Under the pieces are notes generated by a model that was not told where the DNA came from, made no database searches, and was given only the letters and a program-made list of their open reading frames with translations. Shown here piece after piece: positions 7,059 to 23,653 of a stretch of 39,193 bases of DNA. Origin of the DNA: Thermoanaerobaculia bacterium (GTDB lineage: Bacteria > Acidobacteriota > Thermoanaerobaculia > Multivoradales > JAIOJS01); the NCBI GenBank assembly GCA_019911795.1, contig JAIOJS010000440.1, positions 1-39,193 on the forward strand, read 5' to 3'. How positions within the stretch are numbered: the first letter of the stretch is position 1; each line of letters starts with the position of its first letter. The position numbers were made by a program, and so were the translations under genes.

Positions 7059-9728
7059 CTATTCGCCGACACGCATCGGTTCGAGACACTCGATCATCGC
7101 CTGAGCAGCGGCAGCGGTCCTATCGGTATCCGATCCAAACTGTTCTTCCATCACCTTGATACCTGCCTCGAGCATCGGCAGCGCATCCGTGCAAGCACCA
7201 CGCCTCGCCCAGTGGGTGGCCAGCAACAGCTCGCACTCCGCGATCTGCCAGGGAGCTGCGCCAAGTTCCCGTCGGATCTCGATCGCCTCGCGCACGAGAT
7301 CCTCCGAAGCGGGTGTGCCGTTGAAGCCCAGCATCGATCGACCCTGGTTGAACAAGGCGATGCTCACCCAGTAGTGCCGCTCACCGAGCGTGCTTCGGTA
7401 GATAGCAACCGCCCGGGAGAAGAACTCGGCGGCCTCTGCATCGCGCCCTTCGGAGTGAAGCAGGCTCCCCAGATTGTTGAGGGTGGTCCCGACGCTCGAA
7501 TGCGCTTCACCATGAACGCCGATCTGGCCGGCGAGGGCCTCACGATAGAGCGTTTCGGATCGCTCGAGGCTTCCCATCTGTTGGTACAGGTTGGCGAGGT
7601 TGGTGGTGAGTTCTAGGCGCAGAGGATGCTCAGCGGCAAGGTGGCGCTCCGCGATGCTCTGCGCCTCGAGCAGGTAGCGCTCAGCCTCGTCGTAGAGTTT
7701 GGAGGAGCGTAGCCAGCGCCCGAGGACGATCAACGGGGTGATGAGACTAGGATGATCGGCGCCGACCAGTCGCCTTAGCCCCACGACCGTGTCCCGAAGA
7801 GGCGCCTCCGCCTCGGCCATCCGATTCTGGTTCATCAGGTAAGTACCATAGCTCCGCAGCGTGGCGATCCGGTCCAGGCCACTCGACTCGACATCGCCGT
7901 CGTAGATCTGGAGCGCTCGCTGATAGAGAGTGTCCGCCTCGTCGTAGCAACCGATTTCGTCGCAGAGTCGCGCGATCTCGGTCATCGCCTCGGCCACTCC
8001 AGTTTGGTCGGCGGTCGGGCTCTCGGTGCGAAGCCGGAGCGCTTCGCGTAGCAGACGTTCGGCTTCGCCGTGTTGGTCTCGATCTCTCAGCAGGGCTCCC
8101 AATGCCAGCGAGGCGGTGGCCACGAGACCCGACGTCAGAGGTTCCACCGACTCCGCCCCCGCAAGGCTCTGCCGCAAGTGTTCTTCCGCCGAGTCGAGTT
8201 CACCGATGGACCGATAGGCCTGCCCCACCGCCAGGTGCATCTCTGCCGCGGCTCCGGGCAGGTCGATCAACTCCACATCGATGCGCGAAGCTGCATCGTC
8301 GAGAACCTGGCGAAGTATCGACAGATCACGACCTCGCGCGTAAGCAGGATCGACGGAGGTCAGCACCGAGGTCAGGAAGTTGTTCAAGGTGACGGCAGTA
8401 GCCCGCTGTTCCTCACTCTCCCGGTTGGCCTTGTCGGCGCGGAGAAACATGATCGTACTGACCCCAGTGGCCGAGAGGAGCCCGAGAAAGAGGAGCGCTC
8501 CAGCCGCTACCCACTGCGCGTGCCGCCGAGCCAGCTTGCTGACGCGATAGGTGAGAGAATCCGGTCGCGCTAGAACCGGACGCCCCTCCAGGTAACGCCT
8601 TAGATCATCGCTGATCTGCTCTACTGACGAGAAGCGTCGTTCCGGCTCCTTCCGCAGAGCTTTCAACACGATGTGGGAGAGATCACCCCGCAGTTCTCTC
8701 CTCAGTCTCGATGGGTCACACCCTCGCTGCTTCGCGATGGCAGCGATCTCCGTGGTGATCGGCGACAAGCGGTGCTCTGGCCGAATGGGGACTGTCTCCG
8801 CTACGAGCCGCCACGTCTCGGCGGGTCCAGCTCCCTGAATCGCTTCGCGGGGGATAGGCAGTTGGCCGGTGAGCAGCTCATAGAGCACGACACCGAGCGA
8901 GTAGACATCGGCGCGGGTGTCGATGGAACGACTACCACCTCTCATCTGCTCCGGACTCATGTAGTCCGGTGTGCCAACTACCTCACCCACCGCAGTGAGA
9001 TCCGACCTGGTCCCGATCTCGTCGAGGAGCTTGGCGATACCAAAGTCGATGACCTTCACATGTGGACGCCCCTCGTACTCCGTGACCAGGAGGTTCGCCG
9101 GTTTGAGATCCCGATGCAGGACACCTTTCTGATGAGCGTGCTGTACCGCTCCGCAAACCTGCAAAAAGAGCCCGATTCGATCGCGAATCGGAAGGGACTG
9201 GGCGTCACAGTAGCGCAGGATCGGAACACCTTCCACCAGTTCCATGACGAGGAAGGGGTGGTCGCCGCGGGTACCGGCATCGAAGATGGTCGCGATTGCA
9301 GGGTGATCCAAGCGGGCCAGGCTGTCGCGTTCCGAATCGAAGCGACTCAATGCGCGAGGCCCCTGGAAGCCCCAGCGCATGATCTTGAGTGCGACACGAC
9401 GTTGTAGAGGAGCCTGCTGCTCGGCTTCGTAGACGATCCCCATTCCCCCGGCTCCCAACTCGCGCAGGATTTGGTACGGTCCAACGGTCTCCCCGGGCTC
9501 GATCCCTAGAGTCCTGTCGTCGACTAGTAGGTGGTGCAGCGGACCGGCCATCGAGGGAAAGGCGGACCCGTCGCGATCCCGTTCGAGAAGGGCGGCAAGT
9601 TGATCAGCCAGGACGGGGCGAGACTCCCGCAACCGAGCCAGCGTTTCCGCCTGCCGCTCCGGGGTCTCGTTCAGGAGGTTGTGGAAAAGGCCCTCGAGCT
9701 CACGGAACTGCTGTCTCTCCGACTCCAT
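7059..9728 (-). CDS. Ser/Thr protein kinase with TM segment and C-terminal TPR repeats
   Basis: VGPYQILRELGAGGMGIVYEAEQ, VLHRDLKPANLLV, VKVIDFGIAK, SPEQMRGG; many TPR-like units (ETLYREALA...). ORF extends to a TTG at 9779; ATG at 9728 preferred. Confidence 0.92.
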   Translation of the reverse strand: MESERQQFRELEGLFHNLLNETPERQAETLARLRESRPVLADQLAALLERDRDGSAFPSMAGPLHHLLVDDRTLGIEPGETVGPYQILRELGAGGMGIVYEAEQQAPLQRRVALKIMRWGFQGPRALSRFDSERDSLARLDHPAIATIFDAGTRGDHPFLVMELVEGVPILRYCDAQSLPIRDRIGLFLQVCGAVQHAHQKGVLHRDLKPANLLVTEYEGRPHVKVIDFGIAKLLDEIGTRSDLTAVGEVVGTPDYMSPEQMRGGSRSIDTRADVYSLGVVLYELLTGQLPIPREAIQGAGPAETWRLVAETVPIRPEHRLSPITTEIAAIAKQRGCDPSRLRRELRGDLSHIVLKALRKEPERRFSSVEQISDDLRRYLEGRPVLARPDSLTYRVSKLARRHAQWVAAGALLFLGLLSATGVSTIMFLRADKANRESEEQRATAVTLNNFLTSVLTSVDPAYARGRDLSILRQVLDDAASRIDVELIDLPGAAAEMHLAVGQAYRSIGELDSAEEHLRQSLAGAESVEPLTSGLVATASLALGALLRDRDQHGEAERLLREALRLRTESPTADQTGVAEAMTEIARLCDEIGCYDEADTLYQRALQIYDGDVESSGLDRIATLRSYGTYLMNQNRMAEAEAPLRDTVVGLRRLVGADHPSLITPLIVLGRWLRSSKLYDEAERYLLEAQSIAERHLAAEHPLRLELTTNLANLYQQMGSLERSETLYREALAGQIGVHGEAHSSVGTTLNNLGSLLHSEGRDAEAAEFFSRAVAIYRSTLGERHYWVSIALFNQGRSMLGFNGTPASEDLVREAIEIRRELGAAPWQIAECELLLATHWARRGACTDALPMLEAGIKVMEEQFGSDTDRTAAAAQAMIECLEPMRVGE

Positions 9729-9807
9729 GGATATCGACTTTCTATCCCTGAGGCTCGTGGTGTCAACCTGGATTGACAACCAAGTACTAGCTTGGCAACC
9801 CCAAATA

Positions 9808-10407
9808 CTAGGCTTTCAACCCAAGGCGCTCAGCGAGCCAAGAACGTGAGAAGCGCCAATCCCGCACCACCGTCGGTTCAGAAACCTCGAGTAAGCGAGC
9901 CACTTCAGGGACCCCCATTCCCCAGATCACCCGCAACCGAACCACGTTCGCCTTTCTATGATCGAGGGCTTCTAGCCGATCGAGGACTTCTCGGAATGCC
10001 AGGATGTCTGGTAACGGTGCCTCCCCTCTCTTCTCGTCGAGCAGGCTCAATGTCACCCGCACCCACTCACCTCCGCGCTTCTCCGCAAAGCGTCGTCGCT
10101 CGTAATCGATCAGCGTATCGAGCATTACCTTGCTCGCGAAGGCGAGGAAGTGTTGCCTTCCCTCGAACCCGGTGGGTTTCTCGAGCAGCTTCAGAAAGGT
10201 CTCGTTGACCAGAGCGCTCGGCTCGAGGGTGGGGCTGCCCGACCGGTTCCTATACTGCCGCCGCAAGCGATTGGCGGCCAGCCTCTCAAGGTCGGCGTAG
10301 GCCCAGCTGCTCACTCGGGCAAAGGCCTCTTCGTCTCCGTCGGCCGCTAGACGGAGCCAGCGCGTGACATCGAGTGCTTCGCGTGAGCGCGCGTTAGCGT
10401 CTGAGAT
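9808..10407 (-). CDS. ECF-family RNA polymerase sigma factor (ECF linked to the downstream Ser/Thr kinase); start codon uncertain
   Basis: AYADLERLAANRLRRQ...LVNETFLKLLE...HFLAFASKVMLDTLIDYERRRFAEKRGG...VVRLRVIWGMGVPEVARLLEVSEPTVVRDWRFSRSWL; ORF track start is GTG 10314 but the frame is open and sigma-like to 10407. Confidence 0.82.
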   Translation of the reverse strand: MSDANARSREALDVTRWLRLAADGDEEAFARVSSWAYADLERLAANRLRRQYRNRSGSPTLEPSALVNETFLKLLEKPTGFEGRQHFLAFASKVMLDTLIDYERRRFAEKRGGEWVRVTLSLLDEKRGEAPLPDILAFREVLDRLEALDHRKANVVRLRVIWGMGVPEVARLLEVSEPTVVRDWRFSRSWLAERLGLKA

Positions 10408-10612
10408 TGGTGTCTCCTCTTTTCGAACGCAAGCCTAGCACTCCGGGTCCGAGGGCTCCGAACTCCGGCACGGGCTCACAACCGTCACCTTCCACCGTCA
10501 AACGGAGTCACCGGACGAGGGTCGCTTCCAGAATGGTTGATCGCGATTGCGACCGGAATACGGAGTACTCGATGACGGCCCAATTTCCTGGTGCCCTCGT
10601 TCTGGAGAGACC

Positions 10613-11278
10613 ATGCGATACACCTTGTCCTTAGCCTCGATAGCCTCAACCTCGATTGCTCGAGAAGCAGAAACCACCCGACTGACCAGGCTCCTCACCG
10701 GCGTGGTCTTCGCGGTCGTCCTGGCCACGACCGGGACGCCGGCCAGTGCGCACGATGTCGCCTTTGACCGCGAAGGCACGGAACAGCGAGTGATCACCCA
10801 ACCGGAGCCCGGCCAAGTGACGGAAGCGGATCTCGAAATGTTCAAGGACGCCCAGGTCCTGGCCGGTAACGTTGTCGAGTACGAGCTGTTTGTCGCCAAC
10901 AACGGCCCCGATGTGGCGCAGGGAACCACCGTGGTCGACGATCTGCCGGCTTGCATGGCTCTGATGTCGGACAGTTGCGGAGGCACGAACCTACCGCCTT
11001 GGACCTGGGAGATCGGAGATCTGCCGGCCGATGATGAGGCCAGTTGCATCCTGACGCTGGATGGCTCTGGGTGCTCCGGACTGATTGTCAACACAGCCAC
11101 CGTTAGTAGCCTGGCGATCGATCCCTCGCCGGGTGACGAGACCGACACCGCGGAGGTCCTCCTCGAAGGGTCCGGCGCCACGGACATCCCCACCGTACCC
11201 GCTTCCGGGCTAGTCCTCCTCATCGCCATCCTGACGGTTGTCGCCACGACCCGACTCAGGACGCGAGTCCATCGATGA
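10613..11278 (+). CDS. DUF11-like exported protein with IPTL-CTERM-like C-terminal anchor
   Basis: ATG 10613 after GGAGAG; signal peptide; VEYELFVANNGPDVAQGTTVVDDLP is DUF11-like; ends DIPTVPASGLVLLIAILTVVATTRLRTRVHR (IPT + TM + basic tail). Confidence 0.75.
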   Translation: MRYTLSLASIASTSIAREAETTRLTRLLTGVVFAVVLATTGTPASAHDVAFDREGTEQRVITQPEPGQVTEADLEMFKDAQVLAGNVVEYELFVANNGPDVAQGTTVVDDLPACMALMSDSCGGTNLPPWTWEIGDLPADDEASCILTLDGSGCSGLIVNTATVSSLAIDPSPGDETDTAEVLLEGSGATDIPTVPASGLVLLIAILTVVATTRLRTRVHR

Positions 11279-12705
11279 CGACGTCCAGGAAAGCAGGAAG
11301 GCAGGCGCTCCTCGCCCCCGCACTCCTAGCCCTAGCTCTCATCGTAGGGCCAGCCGTGGGTGCGAGGACGACCGACCACCACCAGGCCGATGGGATCGAA
11401 GAAGACCAGCGAGGGGATCTCGGTACCTTCGACGAGGTGCCTTCCCCCTCTTTCGAGCCCAACCCCCTAGGCGGGACCGTTCGCCGAGTAGACCTCATTG
11501 TGCAGGAGGGAGACCTGCTCCCGGATGAGGACTTTGCCATTGGAACCCTCTACTATCCTCGGACCAACAGCAACGGAGTCCTGGGCTTTGTTGGCCTCTA
11601 TGAGGCCGCGGCCGGCAACGATGCCTTCGTATGGTGGAACGATCGCATCGTCTGGCGCAACTCGGATGCTGCGGGTGTCTCCCTCACCAACATCGAGCCA
11701 TCGATGGGACTCTCCGACTCGGGTCAGTACATCTACAGCGTGTATGTCGATGGCGACGATGCGGTTTGGTCGCGGACGGGACTCGTGACGAAGGCCGGAC
11801 AGCAAGCCCCACGTCTTCCAACGGGAGTCCTTTCGACGTTTCACAGTCGACCCAGCATGCTGCCCAACGGTGATGCGTACTGGGTGGCGGGGTTCAACGA
11901 GAGCGGCGGTTCCTCGACCGAGGGTCGAGTGCTCTACCTCAAGCGGGCTTCCCCTCCCGGCACCTTCGTCGTCTTGCGTTCCGACCAGCTGATCGGCGGC
12001 TTGCCCATCGATCGGCCGAACGGGGTTGGCTACGACTACGCCATCTCCCAGGACGGTAGCCATCACATTCATGAGCTGATACTGCGAACCGATGACCCCT
12101 CGAATGACGCCCATGTCGTCGTTGACGCATTGCCGGTCGCCCGAGAATCTGACCCTACCGGCGACGGCGACTCATGGGCCACCTTCGGGCTCGAAGCGAT
12201 CAACAACCAGGGCGACTACCTGGTCTCCGGCACCACCGATGCTCCCAGTTCCCAGGACCACATCCTCGTCTACAACGGTTCCGTGGTGGTTCGCGAAGGC
12301 CAGCAATTGGGCGGAATAACCTTAAACGCCGACTCCTTCGTTGATGGGCTGGCCCTCAACAATCTCGGTGAGGCGGTCGTCCTTTGGAGATCCCCAGGGA
12401 AGGAACTGCTCTACCACTCGTGCTCGGCCTCGAACTTGGCGGGGGCGAAGATCTTGGCTCGCACCGGCGACCCATTGGATTTCGACGGCGATGGCGTCGA
12501 GGATGCCACTCTCACCGATTTCGTAGCGAATACAGTCCTCGGGCAGGGCCTTGCGCTAACCGATCTAGGTCGCGTTTACGTCGCGGCAAGAGTTGCCTAC
12601 GGTGGCCCCTCTGTGGACGCCATGCTTGGCTTCCATCTTCCGGGCTGCCTCTTCTCGGATGGATTCGAGTCCGGCAACCTGGGCGCCTGGGGGGATAGAC
12701 CCTAG
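11275..12705 (+). CDS. Secreted protein with C-terminal DGFESG tag
   Basis: Start overlaps previous stop (ATGA); signal-like N-terminus; ends LFSDGFESGNLGAWGDRP*. Confidence 0.85.
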   Translation: MTTSRKAGRQALLAPALLALALIVGPAVGARTTDHHQADGIEEDQRGDLGTFDEVPSPSFEPNPLGGTVRRVDLIVQEGDLLPDEDFAIGTLYYPRTNSNGVLGFVGLYEAAAGNDAFVWWNDRIVWRNSDAAGVSLTNIEPSMGLSDSGQYIYSVYVDGDDAVWSRTGLVTKAGQQAPRLPTGVLSTFHSRPSMLPNGDAYWVAGFNESGGSSTEGRVLYLKRASPPGTFVVLRSDQLIGGLPIDRPNGVGYDYAISQDGSHHIHELILRTDDPSNDAHVVVDALPVARESDPTGDGDSWATFGLEAINNQGDYLVSGTTDAPSSQDHILVYNGSVVVREGQQLGGITLNADSFVDGLALNNLGEAVVLWRSPGKELLYHSCSASNLAGAKILARTGDPLDFDGDGVEDATLTDFVANTVLGQGLALTDLGRVYVAARVAYGGPSVDAMLGFHLPGCLFSDGFESGNLGAWGDRP

Positions 12706-13647: not shown

Positions 13648-13960
13648 CGTTTGTTCTCCTTGGTTGGCCGCGAACATTTAGCACGAGACGTGCCAGCGGC
13701 CAACTGTGGCTACGTGGAGGCGTCCCTTGGGGGTAGTGGTACCTCTTGTGGATGGCCGCTTGTCTGGTCGCGTCGCTGGTCAGGCTCTCCAAGCGGCTGA
13801 GGTCTCGCCCCGCCGCCCCGCCGGGACGGGGCGGCTCGGGTGGGACCTCATGGCTGGTGAAACCGATCCGCATGACGGAGAAACGGTGTCGTATGGCGAA
13901 CCACAGCACCTCTCGGTACTCTGCCCACTCACGCCAGCACAACAACGGAGGACGAAGAAG

Positions 13961-15460
13961 ATGCGGTTACTCGACAGCGTTACTGGGGCACGCATGGGTC
14001 TGGGGTTCAGTTGTAAGGCTCGATCGGTTCTCGTGGTGGGATTCCTGGCGTCTCAAGTGATCTTGGGTCCGGCGGTTCATGCTGATGAAGCCGCTCCGAA
14101 GGCGGTGTCTCCGGTGGGCGAATCGGGGGTGGCTCTCGTCGAGGCACAGTGTCCGACCTTCAGCTGGACCACGATCGAGGGCGAAGGTGGATATGAGCTG
14201 GTCGTGTACCGAGTGCGTCCGGAGACCCACGAAGCCACGCTCGATGAGAAGCCCGCGCTTTGGGTTGGTGTACCCGACGGGGCCAACAGCTGGACTCCGG
14301 GCCTGGAACGCTGCCTGGATCCGGGGCAACGCTACGCGTGGTCAATTCGAGCGATCAGAGAGGGTGATCCCAGTTGGTCGCAGCCCAGCGTGTTTGAGAT
14401 AGTGCCCCGGGCCGCCGCCGAAGACATTCGGCAGGCAGTGGAGATTCTGCGTCGGGAACTAGCGTCACAGAGTGCATCTCAGATTGAGAGCAGGACCCAG
14501 GAAAGTGACAGGACCCAGGACAGGACCCACTCGACTCAGACGAGTAGCCCTCGCCGCAGCCGTTCACCGTCTCCGGCTGGGCAAAGCGCTACCCAAGGTG
14601 GAAGTTCTTTCGACGTCGATGGTTCCGGAAACGTCGTAGCGAACTCCTTCACCGGAAGCGGCGTCGGTTTGACGGGGGTCGCGGCCGACACGGCCACGAC
14701 CGCAGACTCAGCCGCTTCGGCGACGACCGCCTCGGCCCTGGCGGTCGATCCGCAGCGTTGCTCCGCGACGGACGCAATGAGCGGGATCCTTGCCAATGGA
14801 GATCCCTTCGGATGTATCGACGTCGTCGATGCGAGTGAGCTGGCAACGCAGCTGGCAACGCATAGTGCCTCGTCGGACCACGACGGGCGCTACGCCCCGT
14901 TGACCGGTCAACAGGTGACGGGCAACCTGTCGGTGAGAGCGACTCCCGGTACCAGTGACCCCGGAGTCACCGTCGATGGCAGTGACAATCAAAGCAACGG
15001 ACCTGCCCTTCGAGTGGTGGGCGATCTCCAAGTCCAGGGAGCAGCTACCAATTCGATCTACGTCGACGGTGTAATCCGCGGCGAGTGTCGCAAGGACTCA
15101 TTGGGAAGGCCCTGGGACGAGGTGGGAATCTGGTGTATCGATCCGGTGGCGCGGGCTGGCGCAAACGGTTTGTCATCGATCCAGACGTGCCACGCGGAAC
15201 GCGCCATGCTCTGCCCTCTCGAGGCGATCTTGACCTGCGATGCGGCCAATCTGGGTGATCCAACTCTCAATTCCTGTGGAGTCGTTACTGATACACCGGC
15301 CCCCGTGATGGTGCTTCGCACCTTGGGCCACGATGGAAATGCTAGTGGAAGTGCCTTCGATGAACTCCTCTCCTACAATGGGAGCGGCAATTTGGTAGCG
15401 CCGGTCGATGACTCCGTCACCTTGCCCTTTTTCTGTTGTTCGCTGGCCGCGGGGCTCTGA
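13961..15460 (+). CDS. Surface protein paralog A: beta-sandwich-like N-terminus, tail-fibre-like GSGNVVANSFTGSG segment, Cys-rich C-terminal module ending PFFCC
   Basis: ATG 13961 after GGAGGACGAAGAAG; aligns end to end with 21267-22682 by eye. Confidence 0.85.
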   Translation: MRLLDSVTGARMGLGFSCKARSVLVVGFLASQVILGPAVHADEAAPKAVSPVGESGVALVEAQCPTFSWTTIEGEGGYELVVYRVRPETHEATLDEKPALWVGVPDGANSWTPGLERCLDPGQRYAWSIRAIREGDPSWSQPSVFEIVPRAAAEDIRQAVEILRRELASQSASQIESRTQESDRTQDRTHSTQTSSPRRSRSPSPAGQSATQGGSSFDVDGSGNVVANSFTGSGVGLTGVAADTATTADSAASATTASALAVDPQRCSATDAMSGILANGDPFGCIDVVDASELATQLATHSASSDHDGRYAPLTGQQVTGNLSVRATPGTSDPGVTVDGSDNQSNGPALRVVGDLQVQGAATNSIYVDGVIRGECRKDSLGRPWDEVGIWCIDPVARAGANGLSSIQTCHAERAMLCPLEAILTCDAANLGDPTLNSCGVVTDTPAPVMVLRTLGHDGNASGSAFDELLSYNGSGNLVAPVDDSVTLPFFCCSLAAGL

Positions 15461-15462
15461 GA

Positions 15463-16653
15463 ATGTCTGGCTCAGACTACTCTCGGAAGTTCGTCGGTGC
15501 TCTACTCCTGGGCTCGTTCTGCCTCGGATCCGCAGCCTGGGCAGATCCCTGCTCCGTCCCGGGAAGCCACCTCACGCTGGCTGAGGCGATCGCCGATTCG
15601 GGCTGCGATCCCATCACCCTCGGTGTCGGCAGCTTCACCGCATCCGTAGCGATCGACCGAAGCCTTTCGCTCCTCGGGAGCGGTGCCGATCTGACCCAAC
15701 TCGTTGGCCTCCTGGACGTCGGTGTCCTCTCTATCGGCAGTGCAGCTGACGTCGAGCTTCAAGGACTCGCGCTCTCGGTTCACGCAGACTCGGTACAGGA
15801 TCAGGCCTTGACCAAAGCAGCCGGCGCCACGGTGTCTCTTTCGGAGGTCAGGGTTTCCACCGCGCCGCCCGTCGTTCCCCCTCCACCCCTCGATGACGCG
15901 GTGGCGCTCTGGAACTTCGCCAACGAGGCAGACAGTCTGGGACGCGAGAGCGATTTCGCAACCACGGGCACGTTCTCGGTCGGCAACGTGGCCTCCCTCA
16001 GTCCCACGTTCGCGGCCAACGCCGATGGCTTCGTGGGCCAGGAAGGTGCCGCCCCCAACTGCAGCCCGAGTTGGGGTTCGATCTTCGACGTTCCCGGGAA
16101 CCATGAACTCTCACAAGTTGCCGGTGGCTCGATGACGATGTGGGCCAGATTCAAGATGGCGGCCTTCGATGGAATTGACGATCTCTTCCGCTTCGGGAGT
16201 ATCGCTGACGCCGACCAGGGGACGTACGAACTGGAGCTCGATACTCAACGGGCCCTCTTTTCTGTCCTGGGGTCCGGAGACACGGTCGAGACGTCGTTGC
16301 AGCATGGTACGCAGCTCTCCCCGGACAGTTGGTACGACGTAGCCGGCATCTTCGACGCGGACGCTCACGCGCTGTTCATCCTCGTTCACGATCCTGAGAC
16401 CGGAGGAGCGGTTGGCAGCCCGGTAGCCGAATTTGTGTCCTTTTCTACGCTGCAGCTCCCCGAGGATCTCATCCTGCTCTTTCTAGAGGCGCCGTTCAAC
16501 GCCAATGGATGCAACACGGGTGGGCAACTGGAGATGGCGGCGGTGTGGAATCGAGCTCTCTCCTTCGCAGAGGTTCGCCAACTCTCGATCGATCCGCTGG
16601 CCGGTGCACTCTTCGTCGACGGCTTCGAGAGCGGTGACACCACTGCATGGTAG
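15463..16653 (+). CDS. Tagged partner protein A: beta-solenoid-like N-terminus + LamG/concanavalin-like domain + DGFESGDTTAW*
   Basis: ADPCSVPGSHLTLAEAIADSGCDPITLGVGSFTASVAIDRSLSLLGSG matches 23183-23653; WARFKMAAFDGIDDLFRFGS...LAGALFVDGFESGDTTAW*. Confidence 0.85.
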   Translation: MSGSDYSRKFVGALLLGSFCLGSAAWADPCSVPGSHLTLAEAIADSGCDPITLGVGSFTASVAIDRSLSLLGSGADLTQLVGLLDVGVLSIGSAADVELQGLALSVHADSVQDQALTKAAGATVSLSEVRVSTAPPVVPPPPLDDAVALWNFANEADSLGRESDFATTGTFSVGNVASLSPTFAANADGFVGQEGAAPNCSPSWGSIFDVPGNHELSQVAGGSMTMWARFKMAAFDGIDDLFRFGSIADADQGTYELELDTQRALFSVLGSGDTVETSLQHGTQLSPDSWYDVAGIFDADAHALFILVHDPETGGAVGSPVAEFVSFSTLQLPEDLILLFLEAPFNANGCNTGGQLEMAAVWNRALSFAEVRQLSIDPLAGALFVDGFESGDTTAW

Positions 16654-16684
16654 ACCGCCTAGGAGCAGTACGGACGGGCCCCAA

Positions 16685-16736
16685 CAAGCTGATCTAGCAA
16701 ATTGGTCTAGCAAGTTGATCTAGCAAACCAATCTAG
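16685..16736. repeat. Four-copy 13-bp tandem repeat in a convergent intergenic region
   Basis: CAAGCTGATCTAG / CAAATTGGTCTAG / CAAGTTGATCTAG / CAAACCAATCTAG, contiguous 13-mers. Confidence 0.95.
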
Positions 16737-19700
16737 ATCGCGTCGGCCGTCTCGATTGTCGTGTCGTCATGGAGGACCTTCGACGGTCGAACTTGGTAGC
16801 GTTCTCGAAAACAGTTCGAGAAGTGGGCGGTGCTCTTGAATCCCACGGCGTAGGCAACCTCGTTCACCGTTCCTTCCTGCTGGGATAGGAGCCGGTGGGC
16901 TCGTTCGAGGCGAGCCTCGCGAATCAGATCGCTGGCCGACACGCGCAACAGGCGCTTCAGGTGACGGTAGAGGGAGACACGGCTTTGAAAAACAAGAGTC
17001 GCCAGCTTGTCGACGTTGAAGTCTTCTTCGTGAAGGTGAGTCTCAATCGCATGGCCGACGCGTCGTAGATAGTCTCGGTCGGTGGGACCAACCGTCTTCT
17101 CCTCTGCGCTGAGGGCTTGCCCTGGGCTCGAAGCGTCCTCGACGGCGCCGGACTGCGTTGGACCGGACTGCGTTGGACCGGGCTGCGTTGGACCGGCAGA
17201 GTACAGGTCAGCGAAACGGTCGCGCAGCCGTTGGCGAGACGAGATCAGGCCGGCGACGGTAGCTCGCAAGACGTCGCCGTGGAAGGGCTTCGCAAGGTAG
17301 GCGTCGGCGCCCTGTTCCAGACCCTCTACCCGGCTCTCGGGCGAGGCCCTGGCCGTCAGGAGAACGATGGGGATGAAATCCGTTTCGGGATTCTTCCGAA
17401 CCGCCCTACACAGTTCGTAGCCGTCGAGCCCAGGCATCATCACATCACTGAGGACCAGATCGGGCAGCTCGTCTTCGATCATCGAGAGGGCTTGGCTTCC
17501 GTCCGAGGCTTCGAGGACCTGATAGCGCGGGTGAAGCTGTCGGCGAACGAGGCGTCTCAAGTCGGGATGGTCGTCCACTATCAGTACCGTGGTGCGTTCC
17601 TCGCCTGGGCCTTCCCCGTCGCTCGCCTGGGTTGCGGCAGAAGCCTCCGGTAGGACCGAGAGAGGCGAACCCGAGGACTCGTCATCGAGAATCAGGCTTG
17701 GTTTCTGCAGTGGGGCCCCATGACGGTCAAACGGTGCCAAGTCCCCATCCTGAATGTGGTCGCGGCCTTGCCGAAGACGGACCACGAAACTGGTTCCTTC
17801 GTCGCCCGTTGTGAGCTCGATCGATCCACCATGCCGTTCGACCACCTCGCGAACCAGCGACAAGCCGAGGCCGAACCCTCCCTCAGAGTTTTGGCTGGAG
17901 GCGCGGCCCCGATAGAAGCGCTCGAAGAGCTGAGGTACTTCAGAAGCCGGGATCCCGGGACCATCGTCTCTGACCTCGAGAAGGACATCGCCATCATCAC
18001 CCTCGGACACTCCGAGCGACACCTCGACCGTGCTGCCCTGGGGGGTGTGCTTGATGGCGTTGGCGATCAAGTTGATCACCACCGATTCGAGCTGAAGTTC
18101 GTCGAACCAAACCGGACACGGCCCTTCGGGAGGGATCACCCGAAGGGTTGTCGAGCGTCTCTCGGCTAACGGTTGAAGCTCTTCGACCAGCCGCTGCAAG
18201 AAGACAGCTAGGTCGTGCTCGCGGCAGTGCAGACGGGTCAGTTCCGCTTCACTGCGGGCCGCTCCGAGCAGTCGGTCGACCAGGCGATGCAACCTTTCAG
18301 CGTTGCGGAGTGTCGTGGAAACCTCTTCGCTCGCGGCGGCTGGTAGCCTACCGAGTCGGTCCTCGCTGAGGTCCTTCAAGGGGCCCAAAATCAAGGTCAG
18401 CGGCGTTCTTAGCTCGTGGCTAATGCCGGCCATGAATCGGGAACGCGATTCCGCCAGGTCGCCGAGGCGGATCGCCTGCCGCTTGACCACATCTCTCTCG
18501 GTAGCCAGAGCCGCCGTTCGCTTTCTGACCGCCAACTCGAGGAGACGAGAGCGTCGGCGCAGCTGTCGGGTGGAGAGACTCCAGCCAATGCCGATCGTGG
18601 CCAGAGCCAGGACGGCCAACAGTAGGTCAAAGGCCCAAGTCTCGCGAAAGCGAGGAAGGACGATGACTCGCTGTTCGGCCACGGCCTCGCTCCAGGCTTT
18701 CCCGGAGTGGCGTGCTTGGACTTGAAAACGGTAGTCACCGGGTGGTGGGTCCCGGTAGGTAGCGATTCGGCGGCCAGTGCCGAGAATCCACTCCTTATCC
18801 AGGGGCTCGAGGCGGTAGCGGAACGATAGGAGTTCGGGCGCGGTGAGGTGGATGGCGCTAAAGGCAAAACCCAAATCTCGGGTAGCCCGACGGGGAATAG
18901 TGATCCGAGGCCCGGGCCTCGAGCCCTCCTGACTGGAGTGGACCTCGGTGATGACCACTTCAGGTAGGAACCGTTCTCGCCTGGCCACCGCGCTGGGGTC
19001 CACCGCGATGACGCCACCAAACGTGGAGAACCAGAGACGACCATCTGGACCGGCGACGGCCGGTCGGCCGGTTGTCTCTGGATTGGCGAGACCGTCGTCA
19101 CGTCCGAAGGAGAGGACTTGAAGGTGGTCGCTCTCGCCGGAGACCAGCGCCTCGAGGTCGCTGGAACGAACTCGGTGGATGCCACGGTTGCCCGCGAGCC
19201 AATAGGCGCCGAAGCGATCGGCGACGATACTCGAAACCACCGCTTCGGGCAGACCCTGGTTGGTCGAGATCGCAGTGAAGGACTTGCCATCGTAGTGGAC
19301 CAGGCCCCCACCATAGGTTCCCAACCACAGTCCGTTCTTTCCGTCAGGGTGGATCGCGCGCACGTTCTCTACCGGCAGTCCCTCGGCCTTTCCGAAGCGC
19401 TCGAGGCGATCTTGACGCAATCGATAGAGCCCGTCGGCGGTGCCGATCCAGAGTCCTCCATCGCCATCGCTGGCCAGTGCAGGATTGACCGCCAGGGGCC
19501 AGTCGCCGGTGACGCGAGGACCCTCGGCGAGCCGGGCATCGACACGCTGCAGACTTCGCTCGGAGGCGACCCAGAGGATTCCATCGTCGACTGGATCCTC
19601 GGTGATCCAGGTACCGTCCATGTCCAGGCGGTGGAAGGAGGATGGATTCGGGACCCGGTTGGCTCCCGGCCCACCGAAGGTCCAGCTCCGCCCCCGTCGG

Positions 19701-20893
19701 TCGGTCATCAACCAGGACCTCGCGCCGTCGATCACGGCGCCGTCGAGACGATACAGCGATTGACCCGGCAGCCTGGGGGCCGGCTCCACAAAGACCTCGC
19801 CGTCGGCGAAGATGCCGACCGAAGCTGGGAGCGGGACTCCCTGCTCGAGCCCCCAACTACGCAGCGGGCTCTCGGAAACTCGAACCACGCCTCGAGTTGT
19901 CGTGCCGAGCCAAACGTTGCCCTCACGATCCTCGGTGGCGTACTTGATATGGGTTCCTACCTCGAGGGTAGCGAGTTCCACCGAATCTTCGGCCCGCTGA
20001 AGGTGGATGCGATCCTCTCCATCCACGAGCCAGATGCGCCCACGTCGGTCGACCAGGAGGGGACGACGGTTCTGGCGCGGAAACGAGCCAATGTGGACCA
20101 TGGCTTCGTCGTATACCTCGACCCGTTCCCCCAGGAGCCGAGCGAAGACGGTGCGACCGGAGATCGCGAAAGCCCGTTCGAAGGGCTCACCGGGAGGCCC
20201 CGTATTGCCGTCGCGGAGCCGCACCTGCCGTCCCCGCCGAATCTGGCCCCAGGCGTTTCCATCGGTGTCTTGCGAGAGGTAGACCACCGCCATGGCATCC
20301 GCTGCCAGCGGGATCGCATCACCGTCGTAGGTCAACACTGCCGCTTCGTTCTTTGCGGTATCTTTCACCCAGAATAGGTCGAGATCCTTGCGGGGCACGA
20401 GTTCGTCCTCGACGAGTTGCCAGACCAATGCGTGGCCAGGATTCAAGGGGTCGGTATAACGACTCGCCCAAAGCGTTCCATCGGCGTCCTCGACCAGACT
20501 AGCGATTCGGCTTCTCGGATACGGAGGGTCGCTGATTCGCTCGAACTCGCGCCCTCGGTAGGCGATCAAGTGTCCCTGCTCCGTACCGATCCACAACGTT
20601 CCGCTCGCCCCGAAGTGCAGGGCCGTGATTCGGCTGCCCGTCAGAATCCCTTCGGGGTCGTCGAGTTGCTCGAACTCGAGACCATCGAATCGAACGAGTC
20701 CGGTGAGGGTACCGATCCACAGAAACCCTACATCGTCTTGCACGATCTGGTTGACATGAGTGCCAGGTAGCCCTTCCGCGACTCCCCAAGCGGTGGCCTG
20801 AAGGGTCGGAGCCGGTAGAGGTCCGGTGGCCATGCCCACCGCACTGGTCGTCAGCCATCCCAAGAGCCAGAGAGTGGCATGCAGGGGTCGCAC
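16733..20893 (-). CDS. Hybrid two-component system protein (Reg_prop propeller, Y_Y_Y, TM, HisKA, HATPase, REC, AraC HTH)
   Basis: GVAEGLPGTHVNQIVQDDVGFLWIGTLTGLVRFDG repeats; GISHELRTPLTLILGPL H-box; LEVRDDGPGIP; LIVDDHPDLRRLVRRQL...LVLSDVMMPG; VNEVAYAVGFKSTAHFSNCFRERYQVRPS. GTG 20893 gives a signal peptide VRPLHATLWLLGWLTTSAVG; ORF-track start 21466 overlaps gene B antisense and is unlikely. Confidence 0.92.
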   Translation of the reverse strand: MRPLHATLWLLGWLTTSAVGMATGPLPAPTLQATAWGVAEGLPGTHVNQIVQDDVGFLWIGTLTGLVRFDGLEFEQLDDPEGILTGSRITALHFGASGTLWIGTEQGHLIAYRGREFERISDPPYPRSRIASLVEDADGTLWASRYTDPLNPGHALVWQLVEDELVPRKDLDLFWVKDTAKNEAAVLTYDGDAIPLAADAMAVVYLSQDTDGNAWGQIRRGRQVRLRDGNTGPPGEPFERAFAISGRTVFARLLGERVEVYDEAMVHIGSFPRQNRRPLLVDRRGRIWLVDGEDRIHLQRAEDSVELATLEVGTHIKYATEDREGNVWLGTTTRGVVRVSESPLRSWGLEQGVPLPASVGIFADGEVFVEPAPRLPGQSLYRLDGAVIDGARSWLMTDRRGRSWTFGGPGANRVPNPSSFHRLDMDGTWITEDPVDDGILWVASERSLQRVDARLAEGPRVTGDWPLAVNPALASDGDGGLWIGTADGLYRLRQDRLERFGKAEGLPVENVRAIHPDGKNGLWLGTYGGGLVHYDGKSFTAISTNQGLPEAVVSSIVADRFGAYWLAGNRGIHRVRSSDLEALVSGESDHLQVLSFGRDDGLANPETTGRPAVAGPDGRLWFSTFGGVIAVDPSAVARRERFLPEVVITEVHSSQEGSRPGPRITIPRRATRDLGFAFSAIHLTAPELLSFRYRLEPLDKEWILGTGRRIATYRDPPPGDYRFQVQARHSGKAWSEAVAEQRVIVLPRFRETWAFDLLLAVLALATIGIGWSLSTRQLRRRSRLLELAVRKRTAALATERDVVKRQAIRLGDLAESRSRFMAGISHELRTPLTLILGPLKDLSEDRLGRLPAAASEEVSTTLRNAERLHRLVDRLLGAARSEAELTRLHCREHDLAVFLQRLVEELQPLAERRSTTLRVIPPEGPCPVWFDELQLESVVINLIANAIKHTPQGSTVEVSLGVSEGDDGDVLLEVRDDGPGIPASEVPQLFERFYRGRASSQNSEGGFGLGLSLVREVVERHGGSIELTTGDEGTSFVVRLRQGRDHIQDGDLAPFDRHGAPLQKPSLILDDESSGSPLSVLPEASAATQASDGEGPGEERTTVLIVDDHPDLRRLVRRQLHPRYQVLEASDGSQALSMIEDELPDLVLSDVMMPGLDGYELCRAVRKNPETDFIPIVLLTARASPESRVEGLEQGADAYLAKPFHGDVLRATVAGLISSRQRLRDRFADLYSAGPTQPGPTQSGPTQSGAVEDASSPGQALSAEEKTVGPTDRDYLRRVGHAIETHLHEEDFNVDKLATLVFQSRVSLYRHLKRLLRVSASDLIREARLERAHRLLSQQEGTVNEVAYAVGFKSTAHFSNCFRERYQVRPSKVLHDDTTIETADAI
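17149..17193. repeat. 15-bp x3 minisatellite coding (GPTQ[S/P])n linker between REC and HTH of the HTCS
   Basis: cggactgcgttggac x2 + cgggctgcgttggac. Confidence 0.9.
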
Positions 20894-21266
20894 GCCACGT
20901 GACGACCAATTCTGGGCGGGATCCGAGTCCCTCAAGGCACGCCCCTCCGTTCGAGGTCCAAAGGGTAGCGGCGGGGACTCTTGGTGGTCAGTCCTTTCCT
21001 CTCCAGCATCAGTTGTTCGGAGTCTAACCTCCAACCGCAATGTCTCGAAGGTCGAGATGAGGTCGGAATGGGTCGGAATGTGCCTGCAGCGACGTCGGGC
21101 CCCTTCTGAAGGTCGTCGAGCCAACTGGTTGCGTCGACCGACCGACAAACCGCCCGTCCCTCGAGGTTGAAACGAATCCGCAAGCCAGAGAAACGCACCG
21201 GCATTCTCACCTAGGTATTGCCCTGGTACCTTGAGTCCTTCACACCGACAACATGGAGGACGAACG

Positions 21267-22682
21267 ATGCGGAACAAGGCGATCTGTACACTGACACCGT
21301 TACATTGGGGATGGAACCACCGGGTTCTGGCAGTCTTTCTTTCGAGTTTGACGGCCTCCTGGGCACTCCATGCCGATCTAGGAGCCCCGCTTCCCGTGTC
21401 TCCCGTCAGCGCGTCGGAGGTCGCCATGGTCGAGGCACAGTGTCCGAGCTTTAGTTGGACCACCACCGAAAATGGCGGGAGCTACGAGCTGGTCGTGTAT
21501 CGGATCAACCCAGACTCTCTCGAGCAAGCCCTCGACGAGAAGCCGGTACTCTGGGTGACCGTGCCGGGGGCAGCCAACAGCTGGACCCCAACGCTGGAGA
21601 GCTGTCTATCACCTGGACAGCGCTACGTGTGGTCGATCCGCTCCGGGGGCGATGAGAAGGCGCCCTGGTCGGAACCGAGCGTCTTCGAGATCGCTTCACG
21701 AGCCACCGACTCAGGATTCGAACGAGCGGTTGAAATCCTTCGCCGAGAGCTCGGCGTTCAGAGCGCAGATCAGCGAGTTGGATCCGCGCCAGCGGAGACC
21801 AACGAGCGAAGTCCTGCCGTTTCGTCGCGGCCCGGACCCGCCGCTCAGCCGGCAACTCAAGGCGGCGCCTCCTTCGACGTCGACGGGTCAGGGAACGTGG
21901 TTGCGAACTCGTTTAGCGGGAGTGGAGCAGGTCTCAGCGGAGTGGCGGCTGACACCGCCACTACGGCGTCGGCGCTAGCCGCAGATCCTTCGCGCTGTAA
22001 CGCTGGTGATGCCATGAACGGGATCCTTGCCAACGGTAGCCCCTCTGGCTGCCTCGATGTCGTGAGTGGCGCAGAGTTCCAGACGCACAAGACCTCGGCC
22101 GACCACGACGCACGCTACGCTCCCTTAACCGGGCAGCAGGTCACAGGTAACTTGAACATCAGGGCAACCCCGGGAAGCACCCTCTCTGGGGTCTTGATCG
22201 ATGGCGCATCGAACCTCAATTTTGCTCCGGCCATGACGGTCAAGGGTGTCATCGAGGTCGAGGGCGCCGTTGTCAACGCAATCTCCGTCGACGGTGTCGT
22301 CCTCAGCAAGTGCCGCTACGACTCGCAAGGGCGGCGATGGGACGAAGTCGGGATCTGGTGCGTCGATCCGACGGTCCGCAGCGCAGAGACCGGCCCGAAC
22401 GCCATTGAGATCTGCCACAACAAACAGGCTGTTCTCTGCCCACTGGAGGCCATCATGACTTGTGACCAAGCCAACGTCGGGAGCAGTTCGCTAAATTCTT
22501 GTGGCACGGTCACCGACTCCGCCGGCGCCATGGTCATTCGGACTTTCGGTCACGACGGTGACGGCTCGGGAAGCGCTTTCAATGAGCTTCTGTCGTACGA
22601 CGGCAGCGACAATTCGGTCGCACCGGTGAACAACGCCACGACGCTGCCCTTCTTCTGTTGTGCACTGTCGGCGGGGCTCTGA
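21267..22682 (+). CDS. Surface protein paralog B (same architecture as 13961-15460)
   Basis: ATG 21267 after GGAGGACGAACG; VSPVSASEVAMVEAQCPSFSWTT...LPFFCCALSAGL*. Confidence 0.88.
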   Translation: MRNKAICTLTPLHWGWNHRVLAVFLSSLTASWALHADLGAPLPVSPVSASEVAMVEAQCPSFSWTTTENGGSYELVVYRINPDSLEQALDEKPVLWVTVPGAANSWTPTLESCLSPGQRYVWSIRSGGDEKAPWSEPSVFEIASRATDSGFERAVEILRRELGVQSADQRVGSAPAETNERSPAVSSRPGPAAQPATQGGASFDVDGSGNVVANSFSGSGAGLSGVAADTATTASALAADPSRCNAGDAMNGILANGSPSGCLDVVSGAEFQTHKTSADHDARYAPLTGQQVTGNLNIRATPGSTLSGVLIDGASNLNFAPAMTVKGVIEVEGAVVNAISVDGVVLSKCRYDSQGRRWDEVGIWCVDPTVRSAETGPNAIEICHNKQAVLCPLEAIMTCDQANVGSSSLNSCGTVTDSAGAMVIRTFGHDGDGSGSAFNELLSYDGSDNSVAPVNNATTLPFFCCALSAGL

Positions 22683-22799
22683 AAGCGTCGCAGCTGAGAT
22701 TGGAAGGTATCCGCAAGCGAATGAATCGCACCGACACGGGCACCTGGATCTTGTCTTGGTACCTTGGATTCAATGCATCACAACATGGAGGATGAAGCG

Positions 22800-23186
22800 A
22801 TGCGAAACAAAGCAATATGCAAACGGTCGCGGCAACACTGGGGATGGCACCATCGGGTCCTGGCGATTTTTCTCTTGGGCCTGACGGCCTCCTGGGCACT
22901 GTATGCCGATCTGGCGGCTCCGCTTCCCGTGTCTCCCGTCAGCGCGTCGGAGGTCGCCTTGGTCGAGGCACAGGTGGCCTGCGACTCGTCCAACGTCGGC
23001 AACGGCACCGACAATTCGTGTGGTCACTACACCGACACTGCGGGTTTTGTGCAGCGAACTGGCGGCAAGATCCTTGCCGGCACGTCCAGCGATCAGCTGC
23101 AGTACGACGGAACCGACAACGGGGTCTCTGAGGTACTCGCCGGCTCTTTCCTGCCCTATTTCTGCTGCAAGGCGGTGACGCCGTGA
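22800..23186 (+). CDS. Mini-paralog C: signal peptide/N-terminus of B joined to the C-terminal Cys module
   Basis: MRNKAICKRSRQHWGWHHRVLAIFLLGLTASWALYADLAAPLPVSPVSASEVALVEAQ + VACDSSNVGNGTDNSCGHYTDTAG...LPYFCC. Confidence 0.85.
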   Translation: MRNKAICKRSRQHWGWHHRVLAIFLLGLTASWALYADLAAPLPVSPVSASEVALVEAQVACDSSNVGNGTDNSCGHYTDTAGFVQRTGGKILAGTSSDQLQYDGTDNGVSEVLAGSFLPYFCCKAVTP

Positions 23187-23653
23187 GCTGGAAGCGGTTG
23201 GACCTCGGTATCGGGCTCGGAGTTACTGTCGGGTTGCTCCTGGCGACGGGCGCGCTGGCCGACCCCTGCAGCGTCCCCGGGGACCACGCCAGTCTGTCGG
23301 AGGCCGTCGCCGACGTCGACTGTGATCCCATCACGCTCGGGGTCGGCGAGTTCCCGGCCTCCGTGCCGATCGGTCGATCGGTGTCGATCGTTGGGGCAGG
23401 CTCAGGGGTTAGCCTCCTCTGTGGGGCGGTCGATGAGCCGGTCATTGCGGTCCAGAGTCCTGCCGCGGTGACCCTCGAGGGCCTCGGTCTCCTCGCCTCT
23501 CCGGACTCTCTGCTGACCTCGGCCGCACTGACCCAAGAGGTCGGTGCCAGCCTCTCGATGGTGGACGTCACCGTCGGCGTGGACGTCTGTGGCTTCGACG
23601 GCATCTTCCGCGACGGCTTCGAGTCCGGCGACACGACCGCCTGGTCTCCATAG
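23183..23653 (+). CDS. Tagged partner protein C (beta-solenoid-like N-terminus + DGFESGDTTAWSP)
   Basis: GTG start overlaps previous TGA (GTGA); ADPCSVPGDHASLSEAVADVDCDPITLGVGEFPASVPIGRSVSIVGAG...IFRDGFESGDTTAWSP*. Confidence 0.85.
   Translation: MSWKRLDLGIGLGVTVGLLLATGALADPCSVPGDHASLSEAVADVDCDPITLGVGEFPASVPIGRSVSIVGAGSGVSLLCGAVDEPVIAVQSPAAVTLEGLGLLASPDSLLTSAALTQEVGASLSMVDVTVGVDVCGFDGIFRDGFESGDTTAWSP

Follow-up and report, generated by a model that had tools for sequence, protein, structure and literature searches.

Copies of a gene pair for a probable exported fibre-like protein and its DGFESG-ending partner beside an HTCS gene of a Thermoanaerobaculia bacterium

Results

Organization of the Locus

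The window analysed here, 39,193 nucleotides long, makes up the whole of contig C282 in the metagenome-assembled genome (5.4 Mb, 94% complete) of a Thermoanaerobaculia bacterium. All five open reading frames that a preliminary description of this DNA had listed, as well as the gene of a hybrid two-component regulator (HTCS) among them, were confirmed as open frames at the same coordinates. Gene A (P0001; 13961..15460, plus strand) encodes a signal peptide, an FN3/Ig-like domain, a short helix, a fibre-like GNVVANSF..GLTGV region, and a Cys-rich cap ending in PFFCC. It is followed by the gene of its partner (P0002; 15463..16653, plus strand), the product of which comprises a signal peptide, a short beta-helix-like segment, a Laminin_G_3 domain, and the C-terminal sequence DGFESGDTTAW. 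The HTCS gene (P0006; 16733..20893, minus strand) encodes a propeller sensor, Y_Y_Y, HisKA, HATPase_c and receiver domains, and an AraC-type HTH. Behind it lie gene B (P0003; 21267..22682, plus strand), a paralogue of A without a partner of its own, and gene C (P0004; 22800..23186, plus strand), in which a signal peptide and the first ~58 residues of a B-like gene are fused in frame to a Cys-rich cap. The start of the gene for the partner of C (P0005; 23183..23653, plus strand), a short beta-helix-like protein with the C-terminal sequence DGFESGDTTAW, overlaps the stop of C (GTGA).

The gene order had been described as common to A, B, and C. This holds for A and C, which have their partners directly 3' of them, but not for B, which has none directly after it and is followed by gene C and then by the partner of C. 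On the other side of gene A, the window contains a gene for an ECF sigma factor (9808..10434, minus strand; TIGR02999, with EPSA at the ECF43-type sigma2.2 position) paired with a gene for a Ser/Thr kinase with TPRs (7059..9779, minus strand). Positions 11275-12705, between this module and gene A, encode a protein with a DUF7453 match and a DGFESG end.

Genes A, B, and C and Their Common 5' Regions

The products of A and B are full paralogues (59% identity over 475 aa, PFFCC end included), and, judging from this alignment, the two genes are diverged duplicates. The N-terminal EAQCPxFSWTT domain, which had been ascribed to all three proteins, is present in A and B but missing from C. Structure prediction yielded a confident FN3/Ig-like fold for residues 44-147 of B, with a helix next to it (148-171), and poor folding of the distal halves of A and B as monomers. 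These distal halves had no database match, and the fibre-like GNVVANSF..GLTGV stretch in them was read by eye. B had no PHROG match, the Peptidase_S74 domain is absent from A and B, and a search of solved structures for homologues of B returned none.

At the DNA level, genes B and C are 78.5% similar over 279 bp, which cover ~104 bp upstream, the signal peptide, and the first ~58 codons; the match ends at 22973, just ahead of the CPxFSW domain. Over its remaining length, C has a counterpart in B solely in the Cys-rich cap at the end (47% identity over 73 aa), and the FN3 domain and the fibre body are missing. Gene C is best understood as a duplicated gene from which a large internal segment was deleted in frame. 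It is possibly a mosaic, since the cap has diverged further than the leader.

GGAGGA boxes precede A, B, and C, supporting their starts. A MAFFT alignment of the three upstream regions (13860..13960 for A, 21163..21266 for B, and 22696..22799 for C, all on the plus strand) revealed islands common to all of them, namely ATCCGCA..GAGAAACG (at 13866 in A), GGTAC, and ACAACAACGGAGGA; the count of the island pattern was 3, as compared with 0.81 expected. The 5' region of C is a copy of that of B (74-79% identity), and it was the only other BLAST match of the latter in the genome. Promoter and terminator scans gave results no better than those with shuffled sequences. Because the 5' region is common to all three genes, their co-regulation is plausible, and A, B, and C are probably co-regulated through it.

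The Fibre-Like Family in Related Genomes

When 99 genomes of the class Thermoanaerobaculia (Acidobacteriota) were searched with B, matches were found in 15 of them, mostly via the N-terminal part of the protein, and at up to 12 per genome. An alignment of the N-terminal domain contains ten invariant columns, with invariant C, P, F, W, and Y positions. In half of the family members, this domain matches Pfam Ig_Rha78A_N (PF25788) at E < 0.001; in contrast, A and B match it below the curated cut-off, and no glycosidase domain was found. The modules distal to this homologous domain vary. Among 38 members, eight carry S74, four Lcl_C, one collagen, and one DUF1554, and ten family members match PHROG tail-spike/virion families. 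The distal module of four A-type proteins of relatives (L070, L072, L056, and L062) consists of tandem 'GFPVISYYD..LKVAKCND' repeats. Four exported fibre-like proteins (L037, L038, L039, and L053) end in a hydrophobic C-terminal segment, which in three of them lies immediately behind an S74 motif; self-cleavage would release such a fibre from a membrane-held chaperone. By eye, the PFFCC cap looked similar to the Cys-rich end of a relative (L043), but BLASTP did not bear this out (E 3.5), and the similarity was rejected.

A fourth family copy in the genome under study, on contig C401, has a partner upstream but neither an adjacent HTCS nor the 5' region common to A, B, and C. In a wider sample of the phylum, clear further members occurred only in one other genome family, f42. 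Two of its proteins, L142 and L148, from outside the order, share the N-terminal domain and have long repeats of the head-like type as well, and L142 reads S74-like at its end. A scan of genome contigs with a nine-sequence alignment of the domain recovered eight loci, and one with B alone recovered none.

Several family members resemble phage tail fibres and tailspikes with an S74 chaperone in that their FN3 domain is followed by S74 and head-like repeats. However, the family is chromosomal, is exported by means of a signal peptide, and has a constant FN3 base, while A and B are devoid of S74. Moreover, phage records and viral contigs contained no match to the family, and a phage origin was rejected for that reason.

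The Partner Protein

The partners of A and C had been taken to be counterparts of each other. They are indeed related (50% identity over 112 aa, plus the DGFESGDTTAW end), but P0002 has an extra Laminin_G_3 domain, which separates its stub from the DGFESG ending and is absent from P0005. The AlphaFold model of P0005 has a mean pLDDT of 82, and its best Foldseek matches were right-handed beta-helix enzymes and tailspikes, all at E > 0.02 and none reaching 0.001. NosD-like matches of the partners were far below the cut-off and were discarded.

A partner profile gave 18 full-length matches (E < 1e-20) in the loci examined. In 13 of the 18 cases, the neighbour is a same-strand A-type gene, which may precede or follow the partner gene; the other partner matches adjoin a fibre-like frame that is truncated (L078) or genes of other proteins. 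No full-length partner was found in f2, a genome family of the order, several genomes of which are rich in A-type genes. The pairing is thus lineage-dependent, and the fibre protein does not require the partner, because many family genes of f2 lack one in the genome.

The DGFESG Ending

The most surprising element of this analysis is the genome-wide occurrence of the DGFESG ending. A DNA pattern consisting of DGFE, an S/T/W/C codon, and G was found 128 times in the genome, while a control in the reversed form was found 0 times. The same pattern occurs 90 times in a congener, 81 times in another genome (G036), and 0-6 times in the other Acidobacteriota of the sample. Among 41 decoded copies, 37 are located at most 12 residues from the stop, with the consensus [LI]FxDGFE[ST]G[DN][TL][ST]AW. 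The 39-kb window itself contains nine DGFE[ST]G motifs, at 247, 2923, 5716, 12658, 16618, 23612, 24806, 27537 (minus strand), and 34999, those at 2923 and 24806 being internal rather than terminal. This ending does not mark the cassette.

Four DGFESG tails had no meaningful match in NCBIfam, and a search of a literature collection for the string DGFESG found no paper. PEP-CTERM is an example of a C-terminal sorting signal. The DGFESG signature is similar to signals of that type in its location near the C-terminus in 37 of the 41 sampled copies, but it differs from them in having neither a transmembrane segment nor a basic tail, and no NCBIfam match. Its position and repetition hint at a possible sorting role.

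Candidate Regulators near the Family Genes

The domain set of the HTCS is complete (Reg_prop, Y_Y_Y, HisKA, HATPase_c, Response_reg, and HTH_18). Its gene is, as had been pointed out, divergent from B, and the two are separated by 373 bp; it is convergent with pair A (ends at 16653 and 16733), and the promoters of the two are ~7 kb apart. In Bacteroides, HTCS proteins are presented as one of the major regulator classes for polysaccharide utilisation genes (PMC11253607). As at HTCS-controlled loci of Bacteroides, a full-domain HTCS adjoins the cassette; however, the phylum is different and the HTCS linkage is not conserved. Among the neighbours scanned, no polysaccharide-uptake genes were recognised.

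A search with the HTCS protein of the frames flanking 39 other family loci found no HTCS, the sole match, at L045, having a score (78 bits) such as a kinase domain would be expected to give. Conversely, the flanks of 11 other HTCS genes, which include the closest homologue (41% identity) and three paralogues from the same genome, contained neither an A-type gene nor a full-length partner, and one weak match to the partner profile in these flanks was a DGFETG ending alone; at many loci the flanks were limited by short contigs. The genome of the closest HTCS homologue (G016) had no family match. With eight Y_Y_Y genes and two family units in the genome, ~0.05 adjacencies within 5 kb would be expected by chance. 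Thus, the initial proposal of a cassette built around the HTCS is not supported and does not survive the refuting observation that had been named for it: the fibre gene and the DGFESG partner are kept together across genera, but the HTCS is not kept with them, and it is most likely a chance or lineage-specific neighbour of the family.

When all neighbouring frames were clustered, with no family picked beforehand, the main recurrent companions of the family, besides the partner, were kinases and ECF sigma factors. In ten genomes, an ECF gene was located within 1 kb of 9 of 35 family units and within 5 kb of 13 of 35, as compared with 0.48 and 1.24, respectively, expected from gene density, where the units were counted by hand and the expectation is a Poisson background that ignores gene clustering. 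Two of the ten genomes had been chosen via the partner alone, and the excess persists without them. In most of the family-linked ECF sigma factors, residues of the TTA/PTA type take the place of the acidic ones of ordinary ECFs; the one in the window has EPSA. In ECF43 proteins, a phosphorylatable QTTA motif replaces DxxD in region sigma2.2 (PMC13147305). The ECF and Ser/Thr kinase pairs near the family, with their altered sigma2.2 motif, resemble ECF43 proteins and their Hanks-type kinases (EcfK/PknS and EcfP/PknT; PMC13147305), although the assignment here comes from the motif and gene pairing only. A Hanks-type kinase gene adjoins the window ECF gene (9808-10434).

The window module is 3.2 kb from A. 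Its link to the A locus is weak, because two genes lie in between and such modules also occur in the vicinity of other exported genes. On three other contigs of the same genome (C225, C412, and C59), TIGR02999-type ECF genes lie no more than about 200 bp from DGFESG codons, which suggests that ECF modules are linked to tagged proteins in general. It may be that these modules are associated with exported proteins at large and that the enrichment stems from this. Kinase-linked ECF sigma factors are a better-supported regulator class for the family than the HTCS.

Discussion

On balance, we favour the view that the locus consists of copies of a conserved two-gene unit for an exported modular fibre-like protein and a beta-helix-like partner, and that the HTCS next to them is incidental. 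The first gene would encode a Sec-exported modular protein with a constant FN3/Ig-like base, a short helix, and an exchangeable distal part of the phage-fibre type. The second gene would encode a small exported beta-helix-like companion, the end of which is the genome-wide DGFESG signature. Both proteins would be co-produced and exported and would assemble outside the cell or on its surface as a fibre and its companion, and the distal module would give binding specificity. Gene C would have retained a copy of the promoter region and leader of B and lost the FN3 domain and the fibre body. The analysis demonstrates homology, modularity, pairing, and duplication; the surface location, the oligomeric fibre, and the binding role are predictions. 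The earlier notion of surface adhesin-like proteins gains support from the signal peptides, the FN3/Ig-like base, the phage-fibre-type modules, and the occurrence of the pair across genera, but its HTCS-centred part does not.

It is improbable that the locus consists of the decaying remains of fibre genes, duplicated or derived from phages, that no longer serve a function. Two observations point that way, namely the large internal deletion in C and the likeness of the relatives' distal modules to phage fibres. On the other hand, the open frames of A, B, C, and both partners are all intact, ribosome-binding sites precede A, B, and C, and even C has kept its Cys-rich cap. Additionally, the gene pair is conserved in other genera, and searches of phage records and viral contigs gave no match to the family. 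As regards regulation, the HTCS could have B, C, and A as its dedicated targets in this genome: it would sense a ligand outside the cell and switch on the fibre genes via the common 5' region. Such a one-genome link is conceivable because A, B, and C have a common 5' region with conserved islands, and it would fit the divergent arrangement with B and the role of this regulator class in polysaccharide utilisation in Bacteroides, as presented in PMC11253607. We regard it as unlikely, however, given that the linkage is conserved in neither direction, that the family is unmatched where the closest HTCS homologue resides, that the C401 copy has neither the HTCS beside it nor the common 5' region, that pair A is convergent with the HTCS gene, and that the genome has eight Y_Y_Y genes, with ~0.05 chance adjacencies to a family unit expected.

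A tentative but more credible proposition is that the family is under the control of ECF43-like sigma factors that are activated by kinases and whose genes lie nearby. The excess of ECF genes within 1 and 5 kb of family units and the TTA/PTA-type residues in most of them, as in ECF43 (PMC13147305), speak for it, while the hand-defined units, the background that ignores clustering, the modules that adjoin other DGFESG codons, and the two genes that separate the window module from A temper it. We also considered, as a rather doubtful extension, that DGFE[ST]G[DN]..AW might be an undescribed C-terminal sorting or attachment signal on >100 proteins of these acidobacteria, with the fibre-partner pairs as one cargo and the tagged partner docking the untagged fibre at the surface.

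The Thermoanaerobaculia are represented in the collections used mostly by metagenome-assembled genomes, and their surfaces are little known. A multi-copy family with one constant base and exchangeable ends of the phage-fibre type looks like a cell-surface recognition system. The DGFESG ending may mark an uncharacterised route of export or attachment, and the conserved tagged partner, together with the recurrent kinase-linked sigma factors, provides leads to the assembly and control of this system.
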